Notes under the pieces: model-generated | Database searches by the model: none | The model's input: the letters and a program-made list of their open reading frames with translations, nothing else | What the model was told of the DNA's origin: nothing | Part shown: positions 7,566-60,383 of the stretch, piece after piece | Position numbering within the stretch: position 1 is the first letter of the stretch | How the letters are laid out: every line of letters starts with the position of its first letter | Made by a program: the position numbers and the translations under genes | Assembly (NCBI GenBank): GCA_020846745.1 | Contig: JADLDI010000096.1 | Span: forward strand, 62,001-126,000 | DNA length: 64,000 nt | Source: Bryobacterales bacterium | Lineage (GTDB): Bacteria > Acidobacteriota > Terriglobia > Bryobacterales > Bryobacteraceae | Direction of reading: 5' to 3'

Positions 7566-8363
7566 TTAGTCTCCTTTCTTTCGTAGTTTGCCGATTTTCG
7601 GTACCGCCTGTCGGTTGCGGACGACTTGGCGAAGATCAGCTTCCCCAGCAGTACTCAAATGGGCTAAGTATGCTTCCGCGATCTGGCTCTTCTGCCGGTT
7701 GTAAGCGTCGGTGTGCCCAACACCACCTGGGCCAAATTCTGATTTGCTAATCTCTGCAAGATACTGCCGCAAAGCAGGCTCATCGCTGGTAGCGAGCACC
7801 TCGCGGTCGATGTCCTCACGCGCGGCGAGGTAGGAATTAACCGTATCGACCAGGCCCGTCCGGTCAGGTCCGACTGCTATACCGTTCCGAAACGCCACTC
7901 CGTCAACAGAAATCGTGATTGACTCTTGCGATTCAAACAACTCTCGGCTTCGCCACATCAACGGCGCCCCACTAAATAAGACGGCGCTTTCTACTTTGCG
8001 CGACAACCCCGAGCCAGGAAACATCAACACCTGTTGACCAGGGTTGACGAACCCCATAGGATCATGGTCCCAAAGCGTCATCATTGAAAAATGACTGGTG
8101 ATCGGCTTCCCTTGAGCATTCATCAGCCGATAGGCTACTCGAACTGCAACGACCGGCACGGCCGAGTCGTTCCGGATCAAAACACCATAAGGCAGAATCG
8201 GCGCAAGGGCATCGATCGTCTCCTTAGGCCCGAGTGTTTGAATTGTGTGCCGGTAATGTGGAGACTCTGGGGTGAAACAGGAGATTCCTTCACCAGGCGG
8301 AAATTCGTACGTAATTCGCGGCGCTGCGTTTATGCTCATGACAACAGTAAACGGCAAGAGCAC
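7566..8363 (-). CDS. Secreted protein of unknown function; start codon uncertain
   Basis: About 265 residues, not recognised. The mature region has a beta-rich look with LIRNDSAVPVVAVRVAYRL, a proline-glycine turn before VLMFPGSGLSRKV, and ITISVDGVAFRNG followed by GPD. The same layout is seen in the secreted orphan at 33422-34276, so the two are likely distant paralogues. The hydrophobic signal region extends upstream of the GTG used here: a strong AAAAGGAG (8407-8400) sits 6 nt before an AGG codon (8393-8391) where an ATG would be expected, and AGG-initiated reading would give an ideal signal peptide. The first canonical in-frame starts are GTG 8363 and ATG 8339. Possibly a lost start codon. 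Downstream is the 62-residue secreted protein. Confidence 0.6.
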   Translation of the reverse strand: MLLPFTVVMSINAAPRITYEFPPGEGISCFTPESPHYRHTIQTLGPKETIDALAPILPYGVLIRNDSAVPVVAVRVAYRLMNAQGKPITSHFSMMTLWDHDPMGFVNPGQQVLMFPGSGLSRKVESAVLFSGAPLMWRSRELFESQESITISVDGVAFRNGIAVGPDRTGLVDTVNSYLAAREDIDREVLATSDEPALRQYLAEISKSEFGPGGVGHTDAYNRQKSQIAEAYLAHLSTAGEADLRQVVRNRQAVPKIGKLRKKGD

Positions 8364-16784: not shown

Positions 16785-19115
16785 ATGCCCAGAGACCTTG
16801 AATCGATCAAATCGGCCATTGCGCGCGTGATCTGCGGCGCTGAGCAGGGGACGGCATACCTGGTCAGTCCTACGCGCCTCGTCACCTGTTATCACGTGGT
16901 GTCGCAGGGCGGCGCCGTGGCCGTTACCATGGGCGGCGCGAAGCTGACCGCCAAGGTGGTCTTCCCAACAGACGATGCCGAGATGGCGCTGGCCGATGCC
17001 GCCGACACCGCGGTGTTGGAATTAAGCCAGCCGGTGACAGCTACGCCGTTCGATGTGGCGCCCTATGGGCAGGAAGGGCGCTGGCGCACCTACGGCTTCC
17101 CCGCTTTGGCCGACGGTACCGGATTGCCGCTCGAAGGAAGCGTGCTCGATTCGAATGGGCTCGACGTGAACCAGCAGTCCGCCATGGTGCTCTATTCCGA
17201 CCAGATCGCCGCGGGAATGGCGGCGCCGGTGGGCGGGTTCTCGGGCAGTCCCGTGCTGGTCGACGGCATCGTCGTGGGGCACCTCAAGCGCGTACTCTCG
17301 GAGCGCGATAAGCCGGGCCGGCCCGTTTTGGGTTTGTTATTCGCCACGCCCGCGAAAGACATCGCGAAGCTCGCCAATCTGACAATCGCCGCGGTCGCCG
17401 CTCCCGCGCCGCCGGCAGGCGCCAACCTGAAGGGCGGGCGCATCTTCATCAGTTACCGCTCGAAAGTGCGCCAGTGGGCGCGCGACTTGGCCGACGCGAT
17501 GGAGCATCGCGGCATCGAGGTCTGGCTCGACCAGGAGCAGATCAAGCCGGGCGACGTGCTGGCCAATACCATCCAGCAGGGCCTGACCAACGCCCGCGGA
17601 GCCGTGGCGCTCATTACCAAAGAATGGCTCGACTCTCCCTGGTGCCAGGAAGAGGCCAACGCGCTGCTGCAGCGCGATGTCGAAGACAAGAACTTCCGCC
17701 TCGTTCCCGTGCTGCTCGAAGATGTGAAGCTCCCCGCGATGTGGGCAGGCCGCATCTGGATCGATTTCCGCGGCCAATCCGGTCCGAAGGGCGCGGCGCT
17801 CGAACGTTTGTTGCTGGCCTTGAGCGGCGAGAATTCGCCCGCGATGGACGCCGAAAAGGCCGTACAGTCGATGATCGAAGAGATTCAGTCGGCTGTTACG
17901 GCAGACCGTGTGTACCGGCTTTGGACCAAGCTGCGCCGCACCAGCATGGTCGACAACCGTGTTTCTGAGGCGGCCGCGGATGTGCTGATCGGATTTGGCC
18001 GCGCGGATTACGCGCTCGAAGTCATTGGGACCGCCGGTGATGGAATTCGCGCCCGCCAACTGCGCGGCCTCGCGCTGGCCAAGACCGATCGCTTGGAAGA
18101 TGCCATCGAGGTGCTCCGCAAGCTGGAAGCCGAAACCGAAGATGACATGGACTCCGAGACCGGCGGCATCCTCGCCGGCCGCTACCGCCAGATGTGGGAA
18201 AAGACCAACGACCCTACCTGGCTGATCAACGCGCGCGACACCTACAAAAAGTATTTCCAGAAAAGCAACGATCCGTACTGCGGAATCAACGCCGCGTCGC
18301 TGGCGCTGCTGGACGGAGACCGTCCGGAAGCCCGCAAACTCGCCGGTCAACTGGTTTCCGCGCTTGAGAACCGGCAGGATCTGGACCGCTGGAACCTCGC
18401 GACCCTCGGCGAAGCCAACCTGATCCTCGAAGACCTCGACAAGGCGAAGGAGTGGTATCGTCGGGCGGCGGGCGCGGCCGCGGGCCGCCATCAGGACATC
18501 GTCGTGATGCGGCGCACCGCCCGGAAAACGCTCGAAGCAATCCAGCAGCCCAAAAACCTGCTCGACAAAGTGCTATCCGTGCCGGCGGCGGTCGCCTTCT
18601 TCGGCCATTCCGTCGATGCTCCCAATCGCGAAACGCCACGATTCCCGGTATCGCAGGTGCGCAAGGTGCGCGATGAAATCGAGGCCATGCTCAAAACCAT
18701 GCGGGCAGGCTATGGCGCGAGTTCCGCAAGCGCCGGTAGCGATCTGCTGTTCCTGGTGGAGTTGCTCGATATGGGCGGCCAGGCCACCGTGGTGCTGCCC
18801 ACCGACGTCGACAACTTCCGCGAGACGTTCCTCTATGGCAGTTGGGTCGACCGCTTCAACGACGTCGTTGCGAAAGCGAACGTCAAAGTCATTCAACCCA
18901 ACCCGAAAGAAGACGTGTGGGACGCGTGCCGCCGCGAGATTCGCAACATCGTCTGCGATCGCGCCAAGATGCTTGAAAGTGACGCGAACCTGTTGGTCGT
19001 ATGGGACGGGGATTCGAAGAATTACGTGTACCGGGCCATCGAGTATTGGGAAGAAGAAGGCGATCCGATCACGAAAATTATGTTAGGCAACGCGGCAGCG
19101 GCCAAGCAGCCATAG
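16785..19115 (+). CDS. Trypsin-like protease - TIR - helical repeat - Rossmann-like fusion protein
   Basis: 776 residues without signal peptide. (1) Residues about 8-200: trypsin-like serine protease with triad His37 (TCYHVV), Asp74 (ADTAVLEL) and Ser153 (GGFSGSPV). (2) About 218-350: TIR domain beginning GGRIFISYRSK, with VWLDQEQIKPGD (BB loop) and SPWCQEEAN, in which Glu290 aligns with the NADase glutamate. (3) About 365-590: helical TPR-like region similar to the TRAFs-binding/DUF4071 class. (4) About 600-720: a Rossmann-like part starting AVAFFGHSVDAPNRETPRFP and containing GSDLLFL and VVLPTDVDNFRETF, recalling SLOG-like modules found after such repeats. Protease and TIR are both typical effectors of conflict systems. 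The preceding phosphoesterase gene is 46 nt upstream. Function is inference; the domain calls are well supported for parts 1 and 2, less for 3 and 4. Confidence 0.88.
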   Translation: MPRDLESIKSAIARVICGAEQGTAYLVSPTRLVTCYHVVSQGGAVAVTMGGAKLTAKVVFPTDDAEMALADAADTAVLELSQPVTATPFDVAPYGQEGRWRTYGFPALADGTGLPLEGSVLDSNGLDVNQQSAMVLYSDQIAAGMAAPVGGFSGSPVLVDGIVVGHLKRVLSERDKPGRPVLGLLFATPAKDIAKLANLTIAAVAAPAPPAGANLKGGRIFISYRSKVRQWARDLADAMEHRGIEVWLDQEQIKPGDVLANTIQQGLTNARGAVALITKEWLDSPWCQEEANALLQRDVEDKNFRLVPVLLEDVKLPAMWAGRIWIDFRGQSGPKGAALERLLLALSGENSPAMDAEKAVQSMIEEIQSAVTADRVYRLWTKLRRTSMVDNRVSEAAADVLIGFGRADYALEVIGTAGDGIRARQLRGLALAKTDRLEDAIEVLRKLEAETEDDMDSETGGILAGRYRQMWEKTNDPTWLINARDTYKKYFQKSNDPYCGINAASLALLDGDRPEARKLAGQLVSALENRQDLDRWNLATLGEANLILEDLDKAKEWYRRAAGAAAGRHQDIVVMRRTARKTLEAIQQPKNLLDKVLSVPAAVAFFGHSVDAPNRETPRFPVSQVRKVRDEIEAMLKTMRAGYGASSASAGSDLLFLVELLDMGGQATVVLPTDVDNFRETFLYGSWVDRFNDVVAKANVKVIQPNPKEDVWDACRREIRNIVCDRAKMLESDANLLVVWDGDSKNYVYRAIEYWEEEGDPITKIMLGNAAAAKQP

Positions 19116-32344: not shown

Positions 32345-32629
32345 TTAAAGTTTCTTCGGCCACTTCTGCCGTCCATGGAACACGGCTATCACTTCCAAGC
32401 CGTCCCTCCCGAATCCGGTACGGAATCACGTAGGGCGTCTCCGGAACCACCAGTTCGCGCGTACCCACCACCCGACCTGGCCGGCCATCTCAGGTTGCGC
32501 CTCCAGCAGATCCACCGCGCCAAGAATCCGCTTCGCCACAAGCGCGGCACTCCGCTCGGAATCCCTTGCGATGTATTCCCGGAGCGCGGTCAGGTGCTGG
32601 ATCGCCCGTCGTGACCACACCACCTTCAT
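32345..32629 (-). pseudogene. ParE-type toxin, broken by two frameshifts
   Basis: The ATG at 32629 overlaps the antitoxin stop (ATGA). Frame 1 reads MKVVWSRRAIQHLTALREYI...LLEAQPEM and then derails; the family-like continuation GRPGRVVGTRELVVPETPYV lies in another frame, and the ending VIAVFHGRQKWPKKL is again in frame 1. A lost G near 32486 (ATGGGC read as ATGGC) and an extra G near 32395 (CTTGAAG read as CTTGGAAG) explain this; between them frame 1 meets a TGA. Intact, it would be a RelE/ParE toxin of about 94 residues. Both indels lie in G runs, so sequencing error must be excluded. Confidence 0.8.
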
Positions 32630-32883
32630 CGTGGAGCCTTGGTCTCGCCCTTCTTGCCCCACGACTTCAGCCAGTCTGATACCTTATCGTTCGAAACTGA
32701 CTTCCCGGAATCGAGTTCCGCCATGCCCACGCGAATCTCCCCCAGTTGCCACTCTTCGGATTCGACGTAAGCGGCTATCGCCTCCGCGGCCAGAAAAGAC
32801 TTCGAACGGCGTGCCCGTTTTGACAGTGCGTCCAAGCGCCTCTTTGTTTCTGAGTCGATACGAATGGAAAGGGTCTCTGTCAT
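32626..32883 (-). CDS. ParD/CopG-type ribbon-helix-helix antitoxin
   Basis: 85 residues. The N-terminus ETLSIRIDSETKRRLDALS is the beta-strand and first helix of a ribbon-helix-helix DNA-binding domain, followed by SFLAAEAIAAYVESEEWQ and an unstructured, charged C-terminus that would wrap the toxin. It should dimerise on its own promoter and neutralise the ParE-type toxin that overlaps its stop. The toxin is frameshifted, so the antitoxin may now be an orphan that still represses or counteracts related toxins. Confidence 0.88.
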   Translation of the reverse strand: MTETLSIRIDSETKRRLDALSKRARRSKSFLAAEAIAAYVESEEWQLGEIRVGMAELDSGKSVSNDKVSDWLKSWGKKGETKAPR

Positions 32884-32918
32884 CGGTTGTGCTCGCCTGT
32901 ATACATCATCGCCCGAAA

Positions 32919-32943
32919 CGGAGGGGGAGCGTCAGCGACCCGG
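32919..32943. repeat. REP-like repeat, copy A
   Basis: Inverted relative to the copy at 38393-38417; the two match at 24 of 25 positions when one is reverse-complemented. Core: GAGCGTCAGCGACCCGG. It lies directly upstream of the ParD-type gene and marks the left part of the accessory island. Confidence 0.7.
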
Positions 32944-33421: not shown

Positions 33422-34276
33422 ATGTTTTCTGTTAGATTCTGCACGATCTTGATTTGTCTTGGGCTCATCCCCGCGCAGGGGGCAACCGCACAGCAGCTAA
33501 GTTATGCCTCGAATTCCGATGACTATGCCGCTTACGGCGTTGAAATTAAATACCCGTCTAGCAAAGATTTCGCGGCTTCCGTCCAATCGCTCATCGGTCC
33601 GGAGAATCTCGGGCGATTACGATACCTGCTCCAGTTCTGTCTTTTGTTGAAGAACAATGGCTCCAAAGAGATCATGATGACTACACTGCGATTCCAGTCA
33701 ACTCGGGGTGATGAGCCGCCTGCGCACCAGGTCATCCAACTGAATGGCGGGACCGCTTCCGATGGCACTCAGAAAAATATAACGCCCGGATCCACTTATA
33801 TACTGGGGCCAACCACGCTGGTCACGCGGGCGATGGCTGTCGCCATGACGCGAGCCATGCCGTCAGCCGAGGCCACGCCCACCATCACCGATGTGGCGAA
33901 TCGGTTTCAAACCTTCGACAAGAGCGCGATGTCCCTGGATTCGATAGTTTTTTCCGACGGTACTGTCGTCGGGCCGGATCTTTTTGGCGTTGTTCACCAG
34001 AACGCGGAACAAACAAGAGCGAAGCGCGATGTGCTACAGCTTGCGAAGACTCTATGGGACGATCCTCCGGCGCTCGAAACGGCTCTGCGGCCCCTGGCTA
34101 ACCTGTCACGGGGTGGCGACGTTACGGCTGGAGTCAGGCAGCACTATCGCATTACCCAGCGGGCTATGGCTGAGTTTGTCTTGTTCCGAAGGACCAATAG
34201 CCCAAGCTTGTCTTTCGAAACGGTAGAGAAGTCAGTGCCGCTTGGCCCGGCTTATCAAAGGGCGAGCGGAAGGTAG
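33422..34276 (+). CDS. Secreted protein of unknown function
   Basis: 284 residues. A near-perfect AGGAGGGGA ends 2-3 nt short of optimal distance before the ATG at 33422. Signal peptide at 1-24 (FCTILICLGLIPAQGATA, then QQ). The mature part has LQFCLLLKNNGSKEIMMTTL, a turn NITPGSTYILGPTTLVTR and SIVFSDGTVVGPDLFG, matching in order LIRNDSAVPVVAVRVAYRL, NPGQQVLMFPGSGLSRK and GVAFRNGIAVGPD of the secreted orphan at 7566-8363. The two are likely paralogues of an acidobacterial secreted family whose role is unknown. Its last 45 bases overlap the end of the convergent TacA-like gene. Confidence 0.7.
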   Translation: MFSVRFCTILICLGLIPAQGATAQQLSYASNSDDYAAYGVEIKYPSSKDFAASVQSLIGPENLGRLRYLLQFCLLLKNNGSKEIMMTTLRFQSTRGDEPPAHQVIQLNGGTASDGTQKNITPGSTYILGPTTLVTRAMAVAMTRAMPSAEATPTITDVANRFQTFDKSAMSLDSIVFSDGTVVGPDLFGVVHQNAEQTRAKRDVLQLAKTLWDDPPALETALRPLANLSRGGDVTAGVRQHYRITQRAMAEFVLFRRTNSPSLSFETVEKSVPLGPAYQRASGR

Positions 34277-34540
34277 CAATTCGCGCCGCCGCCGTGCCGC
34301 TTTCGCCAGCGCGGCATTCGGTGCGGGTGGATCGAGGAGCGCTTCGGCAAGAATCCTTTGAGATTCGACTGACAGTCGGACGATTTCGTTCGCTTCTATA
34401 GTCCGCAACGCCGCTTCCAGAGCGGCCGTGACGACGAAATCAGTAAGCGTGCGCCCCTCAATTTCGGCTGCGCGCTTCAGCAAAGAGCTAACCTCTGCCG
34501 GTAAGCGCGCTTCAAGACGAGCTACGTTTGGCCTGCTCAC
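34232..34540 (-). CDS. TacA-type (DUF1778) antitoxin, orphan
   Basis: 102 residues: ARLEARLPAEVSSLLKRAAE, EGRTLTDFVVTAALEAA and ESQRILAEALLDPPAPNAAL form the ribbon-helix-helix plus toxin-binding tail of DUF1778/TacA antitoxins, which normally neutralise a GNAT toxin that acetylates aminoacyl-tRNA. No GNAT gene lies downstream; instead its last 45 bases overlap the convergent secreted gene, so the toxin was probably lost. The last 15 residues (after RRRELL) look like fortuitous extension into the neighbour. It stands 11 nt from the M56 3' scar. Confidence 0.82.
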   Translation of the reverse strand: MSRPNVARLEARLPAEVSSLLKRAAEIEGRTLTDFVVTAALEAALRTIEANEIVRLSVESQRILAEALLDPPAPNAALAKAARRRRELLPSARPLISRAKRH

Positions 34541-34550
34541 TCCATCAGTA

Positions 34551-34594
34551 GGACGTGAACTTCACGTGCACCCTTAGTTTGGCTAGTTGTTTTT
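34551..34594 (+). repeat. Scar: duplicated 3' end of the M56-TonB gene
   Basis: GGACGTGAACTTCAC followed by GCACCCTTAGTTTGGC matches 38028-38058, the last codons (DVNFTLHP-stop) and trailer of the M56-TonB gene, with GT for TTT at the junction; similarity continues weakly to about TGTTAGC. Twenty-seven or more identical bases in order are not chance. One base is missing, so it would not be in frame. It is either the stump of a deleted tandem M56 copy or one end of a duplicated 3.5-kb segment. Confidence 0.7.
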
Positions 34595-34604
34595 GTTAGC
34601 GCAT

Positions 34605-34633
34605 TTGCCAATATTAACCAACTAGGTTAATCT
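34605..34633 (+). promoter_or_regulatory. mqsRA promoter and MqsA operator
   Basis: ATTAACC (34613-34619) and GGTTAAT (34625-34631) form perfect 7-bp arms around a 5-nt spacer; the core AACCA-ACT-AGGTT differs by one base from the AACCT-N-AGGTT site known to be bound by E. coli MqsA. It sits between TTGCCA (34605-34610, 5/6 match to -35) and TAATCT (34628-34633, weak -10, spacing 17), as expected of autorepression. Confidence 0.75.
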
Positions 34634-34644
34634 GAATTGTATCG

Positions 34645-34941
34645 ATGGAGAAGCGGACGCCGCATTGCAGGCTGGCCCTGATGAAGAGCCTGGTTGCGGC
34701 GGGCAAGGTCCGGGCGACGGTTTCGGCACTTTCCGGCGGGGCGGCGCTGGGCTTCGGCTTCGAAGAGATAGTTGCTATAGTTGCGGCGCTTACGCCGCGC
34801 GATTTCTACAAGAGCATGACAACGCACTCAGACCATCGCGTCTGGCAGGATGTGTATCGCCCGAGAACGCCGGCGGGCGATGTTTACGTGAAGCTGACGG
34901 TTATCGACGATGTGCTGATCGTGTCATTTAAGGAACTCTGA
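34645..34941 (+). CDS. mqsR: MqsR-type mRNA interferase toxin
   Basis: 98 residues, the same length as E. coli MqsR, and remarkably similar to it as remembered: it starts MEKRTPH, contains DFYKSMTTHSDH, WQDVYRPR and ends DVLIVSFKE. The catalytic Lys (FYKS), Gln (WQD) and Tyr (VYVKL) are present. MqsR is a ribosome-independent RNase that cleaves mRNA at GCU/GCA. Toxin-first order, with the antitoxin 17 nt downstream and an MqsA-type operator upstream, completes the module. High similarity to a gammaproteobacterial protein suggests horizontal transfer. Confidence 0.93.
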   Translation: MEKRTPHCRLALMKSLVAAGKVRATVSALSGGAALGFGFEEIVAIVAALTPRDFYKSMTTHSDHRVWQDVYRPRTPAGDVYVKLTVIDDVLIVSFKEL

Positions 34942-34958
34942 GGAAAGGGAGCGATGTC

Positions 34959-35363
34959 ATGAAATGCCCATCGTGCGGTGCGGGGAAGTTGGTGCGGGAC
35001 ACGCGCGATATTCCTTACAGCTACAAAGGTGAAGCAACGACGATTTCGGCGGTGCGTGGCGAGTTCTGTCCGGCGTGCGGCGAAAATGTGCTGGGAGCGG
35101 CGGAAGCGAGACGGGTGAGCGGGGCGATGCTGGAGTTCAATAAGCAGGTGAACGCGGCCATTGTTGATCCCGGTTTCATCGCGCGCGTCCGCAAGAAGCT
35201 TGCGCTCGATCAGAGGCAAGCAGCGGCGATCTTCGGCGGGGGTCCCAATGCATTTTCGCGTTACGAGAATGGCAAGACCAAACCTCCGCTCGCGCTCGTG
35301 AAATTGCTGATGCTACTTGACCGTCACCCCGACCTGCTGGATGAGGTCCACTCCGGGCAATAG
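34959..35363 (+). CDS. mqsA: MqsA-type antitoxin/regulator
   Basis: 134 residues in two domains. The N-terminal zinc domain has CPSCG at 3-7 and CPACGE near 36 (four Cys ligands) and binds MqsR. The C-terminal XRE helix-turn-helix (about 70-125: ARVRKKLALDQRQAAAIFGG, then GPNAFSRYENGKTKPP) binds the operator; the Asn and Arg in NAFSRYE correspond to the base-reading residues of E. coli MqsA. ATG at 34959 with GGAAAGGGAG upstream. It represses mqsRA through the palindrome at 34613-34631. Confidence 0.94.
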   Translation: MKCPSCGAGKLVRDTRDIPYSYKGEATTISAVRGEFCPACGENVLGAAEARRVSGAMLEFNKQVNAAIVDPGFIARVRKKLALDQRQAAAIFGGGPNAFSRYENGKTKPPLALVKLLMLLDRHPDLLDEVHSGQ

Positions 35364-35417
35364 GGCTTTGTGCGGCATTGGGTTGACCACGCCCGGTCAG
35401 CGGGTGTGGCGCTTCGC

Positions 35418-35470
35418 TTGACAGACTCGACGAAATAGGTTACAACTTGTAACGTTACTATGCGTAACGT
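35418..35470 (+). promoter_or_regulatory. blaI promoter with two operator palindromes
   Basis: TTGACA (35418-35423) and TACAAC (35441-35446) are -35 and -10 boxes 17 bp apart. GTTACAACTTGTAAC (35439-35453) is a perfect palindrome over the -10. ACGTTAC (35452-35458) and GTAACGT (35464-35470) form a second perfect inverted repeat that covers the ATG at 35460. Both contain GTAAC/GTTAC half-sites, the usual form for BlaI/MecI operators (TACA/TGTA). Predicted transcription start is only about 7 nt before the ATG. Confidence 0.8.
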
Positions 35471-35873
35471 TCTCCGCGCCCGACCACGTAAGAAACCCCT
35501 CAGCGAACTCGAGTCCCTTGTCATGCGTTTCCTCTGGGCCCACGGTCCCTCCACTTCCGACCAGATTCGTGAGGGCCTCGCGGCGGCGCATCCGATGAAG
35601 GACGCCACGGCGCGTACGATCCTGCGCCGGCTCGAGGAAAAAGGCTACGTGACGCACGACCTGGACGGTCGCACGTTCGTTTACCGCGGTGTGGAGCGCC
35701 CCGAGAACGTCGCCGCGGGCGCGATTCGACAATTGCTCGACCGGTTTTGCGGCGGGTCGGTGGAACAACTGCTCGTCGGGATGGTGGACCAGGAGGTGAT
35801 CACGCCCGGCGAACTCGCGGACCTTGCGGCTAAGATCCAACAACAACGAAAGCAGAAAGGTGGTTTGTCATGA
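35460..35873 (+). CDS. BlaI/MecI/CopY-family transcriptional repressor
   Basis: 137 residues. Winged helix at about 13-75: LSELESLVMRFLWAHGPSTS, TARTILRRLEEKGYVTHDLD and FVYRGV are the family's standard sequence; the C-terminal helices (about 85-130) form the dimer. In the classical system the partner membrane peptidase triggers cleavage of BlaI on antibiotic or envelope stress, derepressing target genes. It overlaps the M56 gene by 4 nt and has two palindromes in its own promoter. There is no beta-lactamase gene nearby, so the pair probably controls itself and distant genes. Confidence 0.94.
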   Translation: MRNVLRARPRKKPLSELESLVMRFLWAHGPSTSDQIREGLAAAHPMKDATARTILRRLEEKGYVTHDLDGRTFVYRGVERPENVAAGAIRQLLDRFCGGSVEQLLVGMVDQEVITPGELADLAAKIQQQRKQKGGLS

Positions 35874-38053
35874 TGGCACTCGACGCGCTGATTCGTCCGG
35901 CGCTGGAACTATTGGCGTCGGCCTCGATCCGTGCGCTTTGTTTGGCGCTCCTGGTGGCCCTGCTGATCGTGGTGTTCCGGCTGCGGACCGCGCCTCTACA
36001 GCACGCGCTGTGGACCGTGGTGCTGGCGTTCATGCTCCTATTCCCGGTAACCGCGTACTTCCTGCCGCCCCTGCGTATTCCCGTTCCGCTACCTCAACTT
36101 GGAGCGGTGACAAGACTTTCGAAGCCGGTGGTTCGCGCCCGGCCGATTGTGATTGACGCGGCCAGGGGGACTGTTTCCGATCCGGGGGCCAAGCCCGCGG
36201 CCGCGGCATCTTCGAGTAGCTGGCTGCGTGGCCTCGCGGTCATCTATTTAAGCGGTGTCCTCTTCTCTTTGCTCCGTCTGGCACTTGGGATTCTTCTCGC
36301 TCACCGCCTCATTGCACGCAGCGCCTCATTGCGGGACACACCGGCCAATCAGACGCTCCAGGACATTGCCACCGAGTATCCGCTGCCGGGACTGTATGAA
36401 TCCGCTGAGGTGGCCGTCCCGGTCGTGGTGAGCGGCGACCAGCCTGCGATCGTCCTTCCTATTCAGTGGACCTCTTGGGACGAGTGGAACCTGCGGGCGG
36501 TGCTGGCGCATGAGCTCGCCCATGTCCGCCGCGGCGACTCTACCGTCGTCTCCATCGCCGCTTTGAACCGGTGCCTCTTCTGGTTCCACCCGCTGGCGTG
36601 GTGGCTTGAGAAACGCCTGGCCGCGCTCGCCGAGTCTGCCAGCGACGATGCCGCCATCCGAGCCACAGGCGACCGCAGCCGGTACGCCGAGCTTCTGCTC
36701 GAAATTTCCGTCGCGGCCGCGGGCCGGCGATTGCTGCCGGGGCCCATCGCACACCTTTCGATGGCGGGAACGACGCCCATGGGCAGCCGCATCCACCGCG
36801 TTCTCGACAGTTCCCGAACCTCCACCGGGCTGCTCTCCCGCCGCTCGTGGATGTTCCTTATCGGTTGCGCATTCCCGGTTCTCGCCACGTTCGCCGTTGC
36901 CCAGGTGGGCCAAACCGTTCCGACGCCGATCTCGCCGGCGCTGGCGGACGTGCCCACGGAATGGAACTGGGTTGTGGACGGCCATCGAACGTCCGCTGCG
37001 GACGCCGAACGTCTCGAACAGCAACTGGCCGTCAACCCCCACGAAGTGAATGCCCGCGCCAGGCTCATCGCTCATTACCTTTACAACGCGCAGCCGGAGC
37101 CGCTCACCAAACACGTCCTCTGGGTAATCGAGAACCGTCCCGATACCGCGCTCGCCGGCTCCGACCCGATTTGGAGTTACCCCCGGCCCGACCCGAGCTT
37201 TGAACGGAAGCGCGAACTCTGGTTAGCGCAAGCCGCCCGGTTCCCGTCGAACCCACAGGTGCTCGCGAACGCGGCCCGGTTCCTCTCCTACTCCGACCAG
37301 TCTGCCGCCGAGCGATTGTTCCAACAGGCCCTCACGCTACAACCCGGCAACCGCATGTACAGCCGCCGCCTGGCTCAACTCTATTCCTCGTCGATCCAGG
37401 TAGCCGCTTACGTCCGGGTGGGCCTCCAACCGGCAGGGCCTTGGATCCGAGTGGAGGAACAGTTCGCGTTCAGCGCCGCCGACCGGTTGCGGCAGTCCTC
37501 TGACGGTGCGCTCGCCGGAGCGGTGGGCGCGGACCTGGCCGCCGTCATCGCCTACTCCACGGAAAGCAGAGCGAACCAGCAGAATCAGGTAGACGAGGCG
37601 CGCCGTCAGATCGCGACGGAAGCCGAAGCGCTGCTCGGCCGCGCCCAGTCCCTGCAGCCGGAAAATCCGCAATGGGAAGCCGCGCTGAAGCTGCTGCACA
37701 ATCCTCCGCGGGCCGCTCAACCGGCAACGGCCCCGGTCGACGGTGCACCCGGATCCTCCAATGCGCGGATCCGCGTTTCCGCGAAAGACCAGGCCAATCA
37801 GCTAATCGAAAGCCCCGCTCCCGAATACCCGGCGTTGGCCCGCCAGGCCAGGATCCAAGGCACGGTTCGGCTGAGCGTCGTGATTGGAACCGACGGCCGC
37901 ATCCGCACGGCGCAACTGATCGCCGGGCACCCCATGCTGGCGCCGGCGGCGCTCGAGGCGATCAAGCACTGGTCGTACAAGCCCGCGCTCGCCGATGGGC
38001 GCCTGACGGAGGTCGAGACACAGGTGGATGTGAACTTCACTTTGCACCCTTAG
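35870..38053 (+). CDS. BlaR1-type M56 membrane peptidase with TPR-like region and TonB C-terminus
   Basis: 727 residues. About 1-125 has three membrane segments (CLALLVALLIVVF, WTVVLAFMLLFPV, GLAVIYLSGVLFSLL); HELAH at 214-218 is the gluzincin zinc site of M56 peptidases, with E in AESASDDAAI as likely third ligand. A fourth segment near 325 leads to a periplasmic helical repeat region (about 360-620) in place of a penicillin sensor, and residues about 640-727 form a TonB_C domain (PEYPALARQARIQGTVRLSV, HWSYKPA). A signal-transducing peptidase is likely; what it senses is unknown. The fusion to TonB is common in Acidobacteriota as far as I recall. The gene's 3' end recurs as a scar at 34551. 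Confidence 0.93.
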   Translation: MMALDALIRPALELLASASIRALCLALLVALLIVVFRLRTAPLQHALWTVVLAFMLLFPVTAYFLPPLRIPVPLPQLGAVTRLSKPVVRARPIVIDAARGTVSDPGAKPAAAASSSSWLRGLAVIYLSGVLFSLLRLALGILLAHRLIARSASLRDTPANQTLQDIATEYPLPGLYESAEVAVPVVVSGDQPAIVLPIQWTSWDEWNLRAVLAHELAHVRRGDSTVVSIAALNRCLFWFHPLAWWLEKRLAALAESASDDAAIRATGDRSRYAELLLEISVAAAGRRLLPGPIAHLSMAGTTPMGSRIHRVLDSSRTSTGLLSRRSWMFLIGCAFPVLATFAVAQVGQTVPTPISPALADVPTEWNWVVDGHRTSAADAERLEQQLAVNPHEVNARARLIAHYLYNAQPEPLTKHVLWVIENRPDTALAGSDPIWSYPRPDPSFERKRELWLAQAARFPSNPQVLANAARFLSYSDQSAAERLFQQALTLQPGNRMYSRRLAQLYSSSIQVAAYVRVGLQPAGPWIRVEEQFAFSAADRLRQSSDGALAGAVGADLAAVIAYSTESRANQQNQVDEARRQIATEAEALLGRAQSLQPENPQWEAALKLLHNPPRAAQPATAPVDGAPGSSNARIRVSAKDQANQLIESPAPEYPALARQARIQGTVRLSVVIGTDGRIRTAQLIAGHPMLAPAALEAIKHWSYKPALADGRLTEVETQVDVNFTLHP

Positions 38054-38130
38054 TTTGGCGAGGTGTTTGGCTAACTGGCCTTGGGCTAGCCCTCCCGCCG
38101 GCTAGGGCCGGATGCCACCCTCGCACCTCC

Positions 38131-38165
38131 CCGGAAACGGAACCGCAACCGTCACGGCGCGGGCC
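38131..38165 (+). repeat. Dispersed intergenic repeat, copy 1
   Basis: Begins CCGGAAACGGAACCGCAACC and ends GGCGCGGGCC; the second copy is at 60219-60253 with three mismatches. Both copies lie between genes next to TGAGAAAAA or its complement TTTTTCTCA. Confidence 0.65.
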
Positions 38166-38392
38166 TGAGAAAAATCCCCTGCAAGCGATCCGAGGGTGCA
38201 TTCGGGGCTCTGTAAGTCATCACAAACAAGCACCCAATGCCGTAACCGAACCACGGCGCGTGAGCCCGTGGTCCTTATCGCCCTCGAAGAATCCGTGCGG
38301 AACGAACCCAATTACGACCCCAATTGGCGACCCCACTTACGACAGGGCTAAACGTTAATTAAGATTGCGCTTCGGGCGGTTCGGTGCGCCGG

Positions 38393-38417
38393 CCGGGTCG
38401 CTGACGCTCCCGCTCCG
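38393..38417. repeat. REP-like repeat, copy B
   Basis: CCGGGTCGCTGACGCTCCC plus GCTCCG; reverse complement of the copy at 32919-32943 except for one base. It lies between the BlaI/M56 pair and the DUF305 gene. The two inverted copies are 5.5 kb apart and enclose most of the toxin-antitoxin and BlaI genes. Confidence 0.7.
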
Positions 38418-38469
38418 TTACAGCAACGAGCGAGTTGACCACCGAAAATTGGCGGTTGTATCGTAGCTC

Positions 38470-41106
38470 ATGGCTTTTCGCTATCTTGTAGCGCTGGGTT
38501 TGGGGCTGGCCGCTGGTTTACTCGGCCAGAAGTTGAAACCGTCGAACGGGCAACCAAACGGGCGTGTGACCATCGTCCAGCCAGGGGCGGTGGGGAAACC
38601 GGTGAAGGTGTTGTCCGCGGCCGAGGCGACCAAGGCCGGGCGGCTTCCGACCGACGCCGATGTCCTGTTTATGCAGGGGATGATCCATCATCATGCCCAA
38701 GCCGTGGAAATGGTGGATTTGCTGCGGACGCGCGGGCTCAGGAAGGATCTGCAGGCGTTTGGGGAGCGGATCACGATTTCGCAGAGCGATGAAATCGACT
38801 ATATGAAACGCTGGCTGGAGCATTACGGCAAGCCGGCCGCTCCAGCGCACGATCATGCCGCACATAGCGCGGCGGCGCAGGGTGCGGGAGCGGCCATGGC
38901 GCCGATGCCACTGATGCCGGGCATGCTGACACCGCAGCAGATGGCGGAACTGGCCGCGGCGCAAGGCGGCGCGTTCGACCGGTTGTTTCTCACGGGCATG
39001 ATCCAGCATCACGATGGGGCGCTGGTGATGGTGAAGCAACTTCTCGAAACGCCAGGGGCCGGGCAAGATCCGGCGCTGTACGATTTCGCCACCGATATCG
39101 ACAATACGCAGCGGGCCGAGATCGGCCTGATGCGCCGGATGCTGAACAACGAACCCGTGGAAGTTGGGAGCAAGTCGGCGGAAGAAAAGAAGGCCAAGGC
39201 TCCGGCGAAGGCTGCGGGCGTTTACGTAAACGCCCGCGCCGGCTCGAGCGATCCAAGGGTTGGGTTAAAAGCCGGTTTGAAAGATGCCGGCCAAGCGGCA
39301 TTCGGACTTCAGTTCGTCGCAACGCTGCCGAAGCCGGCCGGCTTTGCACCCGGCGATGCGGTTACGCGGCAGGCTCCGGCCCCTCCCTCGCCTGGGCGCA
39401 AGGAGCGCCCGCGGGAGCCAAACTTGGAATTTGGGGCGGTGAACTCGGACCTGGCTTTCCACGGGAACCACCTGTTTGTGGGCAACTATAACGGGATCAA
39501 CTTTTACGACATCGACAATCCGGGCAAGATCAAGCTGCGGACTTCCGTGCTGTGTCCCGGGGGGCAAGGCGACGTCTCTGTGTACGGGAACCTGCTGTTC
39601 ATGTCGGCGGAGGCAATGAACGGGCGCATCGATTGCGGAACGGAGGGGATCGGGATTCCGGCGGGCTACAAGCCGCCGCCTCCTCCGGAGAAGGCGGAGG
39701 AGAAGAAAGACGGCAAGGCTTCAGACAAAGCTGCGGACAAAGCTGCGGACAAAGCTGCGGACAAAGCTCCGCCGCGGCCTCCGCCGCCGCCGAGTAAGGA
39801 GCGGTTCCGCGGTGTGCGTATCTTCGATATCAGCGACCTGTCGCGGCCTAGGCAGATAGCCGCCGTGCAGACCTGCCGGGGGTCGCACACGCACACGCTG
39901 GTGATAGATCGAAAGGACAAAGAGAACGTTTATATCTACGTTTCAGGAATCGGAGGCGTACGGCAGAAAGAGGAACTGGGCGAATGTTCCGGCGGGGAAC
40001 CGGAGAAGAACCCGGCGACCGCGCTGTTCCGGATCGACATCATCCAGGTGCCGCTGGCGCATCCCGATCAGGCGAGGATCGTGAACAGCCCGCGGATTTT
40101 CGCCGATGACAAGAGCGGAGCGGCGAACGCCCTGTGGAAGGGCGGCTCGCACGGCGAAGGAACCCAGGAGACCTCCAAGACGGATAAGTGCCACGACATT
40201 ACCGTCTATTCGGAACTGGGCCTGGCGGCCGGAGCGTGTTCCGGGAACGGCATTCTGCTCGAGATTTCCGATCCCGTCCATCCCAAGCGGATCGACGCCG
40301 TTACGGACCCGAACTTCGCCTTCTGGCATTCGGCGAGTTTCAACAACGACGGCACGAAGGTGCTGTTCACGGATGAATGGGGCGGCGGGGCGCAGCCGCG
40401 CTGCCGGGAGTCGGACCCCATGCACTGGGGCGCCGATGCGATCTTCACGCTGGAAAAGGGGAAGATGACGCTGGCCTCCTATTTCAAAATGCCGGCATCG
40501 CAGACTGAGACTGAAAATTGCGTCGCCCATAACGGATCGCTGATTCCGGTTCCCGGGCGGGACCTCATGGTGCAAGCCTGGTATCAGGGCGGGATTTCGA
40601 TTCTGGATTTTACCGACGCTTCGCATCCGTTCGAGGTGGCGTACTTCGACCGCGGGCCGACGGACAGCAAGAAGAAGGGACTGGGCGGGCACTGGTCGGC
40701 TTACTGGTACAACGGGTATATCTATGGCGCGGAGATCGCGCGAGGCGTCGACGTATTGAAGCTGGTACCCACTCGGTTTCTGACGCAGAACGAGATCGAT
40801 GCGGCGAACCAGGTCCATTTCGACGAACTAAATGTCCAGAACCAGCCGAAGATCGCCTGGCCTTCGAATTTCATCGTGGGCCGGGCGTACGTGGATCAAC
40901 TAGAGCGGAGCGCGGCCCTGAGCGCCGAACGTACGGGAGCATTGCGGGCGTTGATGCAGGCGGCTGAAGGGCCGCGGCCGGACCGCAAGCGGCGGGGGGA
41001 ACTGCTCACCTCGGCCGATAGCTTGGAGAAAGAGGCGGCGCAGGCGAAGAGCGCCGCAGACGGGCAACGTATGCGCGCGCTGGCGGCGATCTTCAAGGAG
41101 CGTTAA
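38470..41106 (+). CDS. Exported DUF305 (twice) - beta-propeller fusion protein
   Basis: 878 residues. Signal-like N-terminus (AFRYLVALGLGLAAGLLGQ). Two DUF305 modules follow: residues about 55-120 with LFMQGMIHHHAQAVEMVDLL and about 170-230 with LFLTGMIQHHDGALVMVKQLL; DUF305 is a four-helix, ferritin-like His/Met-rich fold suspected of binding copper or other metals. The region from about 310 onward is a LVIVD-type propeller (HLFVGNYNGINFYDI, RGVRIFDISDLSRPRQI, SILDFTDASHPFEVAYFD). A low-complexity linker near 415-440 has tandem DKAA units from a 12-bp repeat and then a proline run. It is probably periplasmic or surface-bound; function unknown. Confidence 0.85.
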   Translation: MAFRYLVALGLGLAAGLLGQKLKPSNGQPNGRVTIVQPGAVGKPVKVLSAAEATKAGRLPTDADVLFMQGMIHHHAQAVEMVDLLRTRGLRKDLQAFGERITISQSDEIDYMKRWLEHYGKPAAPAHDHAAHSAAAQGAGAAMAPMPLMPGMLTPQQMAELAAAQGGAFDRLFLTGMIQHHDGALVMVKQLLETPGAGQDPALYDFATDIDNTQRAEIGLMRRMLNNEPVEVGSKSAEEKKAKAPAKAAGVYVNARAGSSDPRVGLKAGLKDAGQAAFGLQFVATLPKPAGFAPGDAVTRQAPAPPSPGRKERPREPNLEFGAVNSDLAFHGNHLFVGNYNGINFYDIDNPGKIKLRTSVLCPGGQGDVSVYGNLLFMSAEAMNGRIDCGTEGIGIPAGYKPPPPPEKAEEKKDGKASDKAADKAADKAADKAPPRPPPPPSKERFRGVRIFDISDLSRPRQIAAVQTCRGSHTHTLVIDRKDKENVYIYVSGIGGVRQKEELGECSGGEPEKNPATALFRIDIIQVPLAHPDQARIVNSPRIFADDKSGAANALWKGGSHGEGTQETSKTDKCHDITVYSELGLAAGACSGNGILLEISDPVHPKRIDAVTDPNFAFWHSASFNNDGTKVLFTDEWGGGAQPRCRESDPMHWGADAIFTLEKGKMTLASYFKMPASQTETENCVAHNGSLIPVPGRDLMVQAWYQGGISILDFTDASHPFEVAYFDRGPTDSKKKGLGGHWSAYWYNGYIYGAEIARGVDVLKLVPTRFLTQNEIDAANQVHFDELNVQNQPKIAWPSNFIVGRAYVDQLERSAALSAERTGALRALMQAAEGPRPDRKRRGELLTSADSLEKEAAQAKSAADGQRMRALAAIFKER
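39719..39771 (+). repeat. 12-bp tandem repeat in coding sequence
   Basis: Four units close to GACAAAGCTGCG encode (DKAA)n in the propeller protein's linker. Length variation here would keep the frame, giving a hinge of variable length. Confidence 0.7.
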
Positions 41107-60140: not shown

Positions 60141-60383
60141 GGGCGTGAGAAAAAATCCGCTGAATGCGATTTAGCACCGCGCCCCGGATCCGGTAAACCA
60201 CTGCAAACACGCATTGCACCGGAAACAGAACCGCAACCGTAAGGGCGCGGGCCGCATTTTTCTCAGTCCCGTAAGGGCGCGGGCCGCATTTTTTCTCAAT
60301 CCCGCAATGGAGCGGTGTTCCGGATTCCTGCACGCGCCCCAAGCGAGCAGTGCCACCACGTCCTCACCGGAATCCCGATCTAA
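60141..60383. repeat. Intergenic repeat cluster
   Basis: 60219-60253 is the second copy of the repeat at 38131-38165. Overlapping its end, a 32-33-bp unit starting GTAAGGGCGCGGGCCGC is present twice in direct tandem at 60239-60270 and 60271-60303, with one extra T and one G-to-A change. TGAGAAAAAATCC at about 60148 is the complement of TTTTTCTCA inside the units, so transcripts could fold. Too few units for CRISPR and no spacers. Confidence 0.65.

Follow-up and report, generated by a model that had tools for sequence, protein, structure and literature searches.

The question raised by this locus is why a non-coding stretch in front of the toxin-antitoxin genes mqsRA repeats the end of a peptidase gene located 3.5 kb further on. 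The window, that is, the whole stretch of 64,000 nucleotides of the Bryobacterales contig JADLDI010000096.1 that was analysed, displays the following features at this place:

34232–34540, minus strand: orphan tacA-like antitoxin gene (PF08681, TacA1, E 4e-24), its start 10 nt from the left copy of the repeat
34551–34592, plus strand: left copy, non-coding, which reproduces the last 8 codons of the M56-TonB gene (one base fewer) together with its stop codon and a 15-nt trailer
34605–35363, plus strand: mqsRA module, with mqsR at 34645–34941 and mqsA at 34959–35363 (PF15723, E 4.5e-34; PF15731, E 3.1e-61)
35460–35873, plus strand: blaI-like repressor gene (PF03965, E 4.8e-27)
35870–38053, plus strand: gene of an M56 (BlaR1-type) peptidase with a TonB C-terminal domain (PF05569, E 4.6e-33; PF03544, E 7.9e-19)
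38026–38068, plus strand: right copy, being the M56-TonB gene's own, native 3' end and trailer (stop codon 38051–38053)
38119–38419, plus strand: non-coding dispersed repeat a short way to the right of the right copy, with edges at 38119 and 38419

A sequence-only reading had placed the repeat at 34551–34582 and 38028–38058. It is present at these positions, and its true extent is slightly longer: local alignment of 34551–34592 with 38026–38068 displays 38 identical columns out of 43, the remainder being 4 mismatches and a single 1-nt gap, and looser scoring extends the match by 5 nt leftward, to 34546/38021. The stretches GTGAACTTCAC and GCACCCTTAGTTTGGC have the same letters in the left and the right copy. 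The right copy consists of the final 8 codons (DVNFTLHP) of the M56-TonB ORF, its stop codon and 15 nt of trailer. The left copy has tacA on one side, starting at 34540 on the minus strand, and mqsR on the other, starting at 34645. As direct repeats the two enclose exactly four genes, namely mqsR, mqsA, blaI and M56. When the 64 kb are compared with themselves by blastn (word 11, low-complexity filter on), the pair reaches E 1.06e-6 and is among three repeat pairs at E ≤ 1e-4. Its score of 59 compares with a single score of 55 among 502 other segments used as control, which was traced to a different dispersed repeat inside the control query (38131–38165 and 60219–60253), not to the trailer; with 38020–38100 alone, the best control score is 27. 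An argument from synonymous changes, according to which the left copy would stem from a working gene, was given no weight: GAT/GAC is the one clear third-position difference between the copies and alone fits the argument, and the ACT-TTG/ACG-TG difference can be aligned in two ways.

That the trailer might be a common dispersed repeat unrelated to M56 genes was considered and rejected. Apart from the segment itself, a search with 34541–34612 against the 7.83-Mb genome returns the right copy at E 7.7e-8 and a match of 14 nt at E 5.94, and hence no third copy of the trailer. In the window, TGCACCCTTAGTTTGGC with up to 3 mismatches matches at the two copies only (over 100 shuffles the mean was 0.11, with 2 matches in one of them). 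The 21-base pattern TTCACN{1,3}TGCACCCTTAGTTTGG, common to both copies, is found in 1 of 237 family genomes, which is the genome of the window itself, twice; it is absent from the 236 others in an exact search, by which diverged relatives would be missed. With the final C added, the resulting 22-base pattern matched 0 stretches of a wider contig collection (exact search, own genome possibly excluded). In two relatives with a homologous M56 3' end (L081, L083), no DNA match is found at that end. Because the trailer is not dispersed, and because the copy spans coding end, stop codon and trailer alike, the left copy derives from the 3' end of the M56-TonB gene, as the sequence-only reading had proposed, and is a copy of a gene end instead of a conserved protein motif. 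It is a significant second copy of part of the gene and not a dispersed repeat.

Based on these observations, we hypothesize that the left copy is a passive scar of a duplicated M56 3' end, most likely of a tandem blaI-M56 pair that was mostly deleted, and that mqsRA landed in the gap. We assign a probability of roughly one half to this reading. The analysis shows the repeat, the uniqueness of the repeat, the edges of the modules and the stripped state of tacA (frames read); we infer that the lost copy was a whole gene, and in which order things happened. A second copy of the blaI-M56-TonB 3' end, most likely within a tandem duplicate pair, would have been located left of the present pair. Nearly the whole duplicate would have been deleted, one edge of the deletion falling just within the last codons and the other just before the start codon of tacA. 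By this deletion tacA would have lost its promoter, and a toxin gene would have been lost on its other side. The mobile mqsRA pair would have settled between the scar and blaI.

The spacing may support such a course of events. When mqsRA (34605–35363) is removed, the scar is found about 85 nt ahead of the blaI promoter (homology from 35438), which is the spot expected for the end of a preceding pair, and a tandem duplicate is therefore favoured. Furthermore, tacA is cut at the scar, and clusters of M56 genes occur in the family: contig C105 of genome G031 holds three M56 matches in a 6-kb span, two sharing a strand and the third on the opposite one, as the one clear case among the matches listed for 61 genomes. 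However, the rarity of neighbouring M56 genes would argue against a tandem duplicate, as two separate M56 genes within 10 kb on one contig were found in none of 41 genomes, mostly drafts. The same may be said of the lack of any other trace of a second gene in the window, where no further M56 or BlaI piece was found (tblastn, E ≤ 1), together with the lack of a further trailer copy in the genome. The abrupt length of 42 nt fits a short copied segment equally well. Tandem gene duplication with subsequent deletion is the ordinary course of bacterial gene amplification and loss. The locus resembles it in that the surviving gene is accompanied by a short direct copy of its end, and in the M56 cluster of the one relative; it differs in that neither an intact second copy nor a sister state was found among the genomes searched. 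The scar is ordinary genome wear, not a new kind of element.

The tacA gene resembles TacAT modules in its TacA1 domain. It differs from them in two respects. No GNAT-like frame is found behind it (frames read by eye), whereas such a frame follows tacA in 7 of 7 other tacA loci printed (also by eye; the comparison covers 8 of 12 tacA loci, the window's included, and 4 of 12 are unread). In addition, a promoter scan found no sigma-70-type promoter in front of it, the DNA upstream being the scar. The tacA gene of the window thus seems to be a remnant stripped of its toxin and of a promoter-like site. An ORF at 33422–34276 has no Pfam match and a weak relative at 7656–8288 on the other strand of the window (20% over 220 aa, E 6e-6). 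A ParE-like toxin and RHH antitoxin pair at 32426–32883, in a stretch of mildly lower G+C, lies less than 3 kb from tacA and mqsRA and adds a third type of toxin-antitoxin system to these two.

The blaI and M56-TonB genes correspond to BlaI/BlaR1-type M56 pairs in their BlaI and M56 domains, in their overlap, and in the palindrome GTTACAACTTGTAAC at 35439–35453 in front of blaI, which we take to resemble a BlaI box. They differ by the TonB C-terminal domain of the peptidase (PF03544, residues 649–725 of the ORF); matches in two relatives (G036, G034) reach the same end. DNA homology to the sole same-genus genome (G001) starts at 35438, ahead of blaI. Among the matches listed, this genome is the closest relative, with an M56 protein that is 48% identical and a contig that ends inside the gene. 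Its blaI-M56 genes have different upstream neighbours, with no match to mqsRA or tacA. A close sister genome with the undeleted state was not found among the genomes searched, and a scan of the wider contig collection for related loci gave 14 stretches matching the pattern, of which 0 were confirmed.

A possible, though less likely, alternative is a short templated copy, in which about 42 nt of the M56 3' end, 3.5 kb away, would have been pasted in during repair of a break at tacA/mqsRA, a second M56 gene never having been present. It would account for the sharp ends of a match of only 42–43 nt and for the missing further M56 or BlaI piece in the window, and two adjacent Ku-type matches in the genome make an end-joining pathway plausible. 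However, the piece spans a gene end with its trailer, runs in the sense direction and has a spacing that suits a tandem pair, and no precedent was found among the papers searched. A tandem gene and a short templated copy are indistinguishable here, as the sole genome of the same genus is both too diverged and too fragmented.

The mqsRA module agrees with MqsRA type II toxin-antitoxin systems in the toxin gene placed before the antitoxin gene, in near full-length Pfam matches and in a palindrome in front; it shows no difference from them and merely adjoins the scar. The palindrome in question, TTAACCAACTAGGTTAA, is presumably operator-like. DNA homology to relatives begins at 34602–34605 in 5 of 8 loci (L066–L069, L071) and ends at 35363 in 5 of 8 (L066–L070), the others matching less far. 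These edges suggest that the module consists of mqsRA and the operator-like palindrome, and of little else. MqsA relatives are present on 91 of 72,556 plasmid records.

Besides collapsed tandem genes, the sequence-only reading had offered a 3.5-kb unit carrying mqsRA, blaI and M56, which would have arrived whole, with the two copies as its terminal or target repeats. Direct repeats that bound exactly these four genes are what such a unit might leave. We nevertheless consider it unlikely, and this part of the earlier reading is not supported. Among 13 related loci read (8 of 14 mqsA loci and 5 of at least 29 M56 loci listed), none contains mqsRA together with blaI-M56: a blaI or M56 match is found in 0 of 8 mqsA loci (about 0.9–1.5 kb of flank; E 1e-4), and an mqsRA match in 0 of 5 blaI-M56 loci (E 1e-4), where no tacA match is found either. 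The homology of mqsRA stops at the module's own edges, and no recombinase or transposase is found among 29 ORFs of the window scanned with Pfam (9 + 10 + 10, all four genes between the repeats included). In addition, 5 of 43 columns distinguish the two repeats, and the right one sits in a coding end. Since the modules are separate in the relatives read, the 3.5-kb stretch looks assembled on site and not like a travelling unit. A mobile element integrated at the M56 3' end, with this end rebuilt, was set aside, as the repeats flank M56 itself and no recombinase was found among the ORFs scanned; an integron cassette was considered by eye only.

It may further be asked whether the scar was put to use as an operator, which appears improbable. 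The left copy contains a perfect 15-nt palindrome, ACGTGAACTTCACGT, at 34553–34567, directly before tacA; the right copy has the inner 11 nt of it only, and the changes in the left copy lengthen the palindrome. Given 17 perfect palindromes of at least 14 nt in 64 kb, the 104 nt that separate tacA from mqsR would be expected to contain about 0.03. The palindrome is suggestive as a candidate control site beside tacA. However, a perfect palindrome of at least 11 nt is absent before 7 of 7 other tacA loci printed, the tacA gene of the window seems to have lost its toxin, and no sigma-70-type promoter was found there by scan. An exaptation by which a dead sensor-gene end would have become a shared control site of the orphan tacA and the newly landed mqsRA, its palindrome growing from 11 to 15 nt, appears highly improbable from these letters. 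A misjoin of the draft contig at the left copy is hardly to be expected either: the draft consists of 157 contigs with an estimated contamination of 5.42%, and the nearby dispersed repeat sits near several contig ends, but the copies, unlike at 5 of 43 columns, are not the result of assembling a single sequence twice, and a repeat of 42 nt would be short to force a misjoin.

The locus shows that the stretch is pieced together from separately inherited modules, namely the tacA remnant, mqsRA and blaI-M56, with a left seam that can be located with a precision of a few bases. Its wider importance is small, since large bacterial genomes commonly undergo duplication, deletion and the insertion of toxin-antitoxin genes. 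Paralogs, mobile elements and repeat-mediated recombination are treated, in the portion of the text available, in a study of the large genome of Ca. Solibacter usitatus (PMC3174227); neither "BlaR" nor "peptidase M56" occurs in that portion. A literature search found no description of such a gene-end scar in the opening parts of the abstracts.

On the right flank, 38119–38419 is a copy of a mosaic repeat family, short pieces of which are found at 32917–32943 (inverted) and 60219–60253. With 38060–38470 as query, 60 matches were obtained in the own genome at E ≤ 0.01, self included and some being pieces of one copy; a number of them are located near contig ends. The segment 37900–38300, which covers the first part of the dispersed repeat only, has no match in G001, and a search of the window against Rfam gave no match. 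Ahead of the DUF305 gene, G001 has a hydrolase-like gene (label by eye) with a 75% identical counterpart on contig C54 of the genome of the window. No copy of the dispersed repeat is found at this C54 locus, and this argues against a simple exchange mediated by the repeat at this point. That the M56-DUF305 neighbourhood is not seen in G001 would fit a reshuffled region and neither proves nor dates the scar.

Some minor observations concern other parts of the window and the relatives of mqsRA. PADLOC gave no match for 8 proteins. A protein encoded at 16785–19115 combines trypsin-like, TIR and TPR-S domains, an architecture reminiscent of effectors in bacterial conflict or defence. In the gene of the DUF305 protein, 12-nt tandem repeats at 39714–39773 give rise to a repeated DKAA stretch. 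Among eight mqsA relatives (L066–L073), MqsR is unbroken over 98 aa in 2, broken or partial in 5 and without match in 1, and MqsA is continuous over 134 aa in 6; unless these are frameshifts of draft genomes, the pattern is one of toxin decay with the antitoxin kept.
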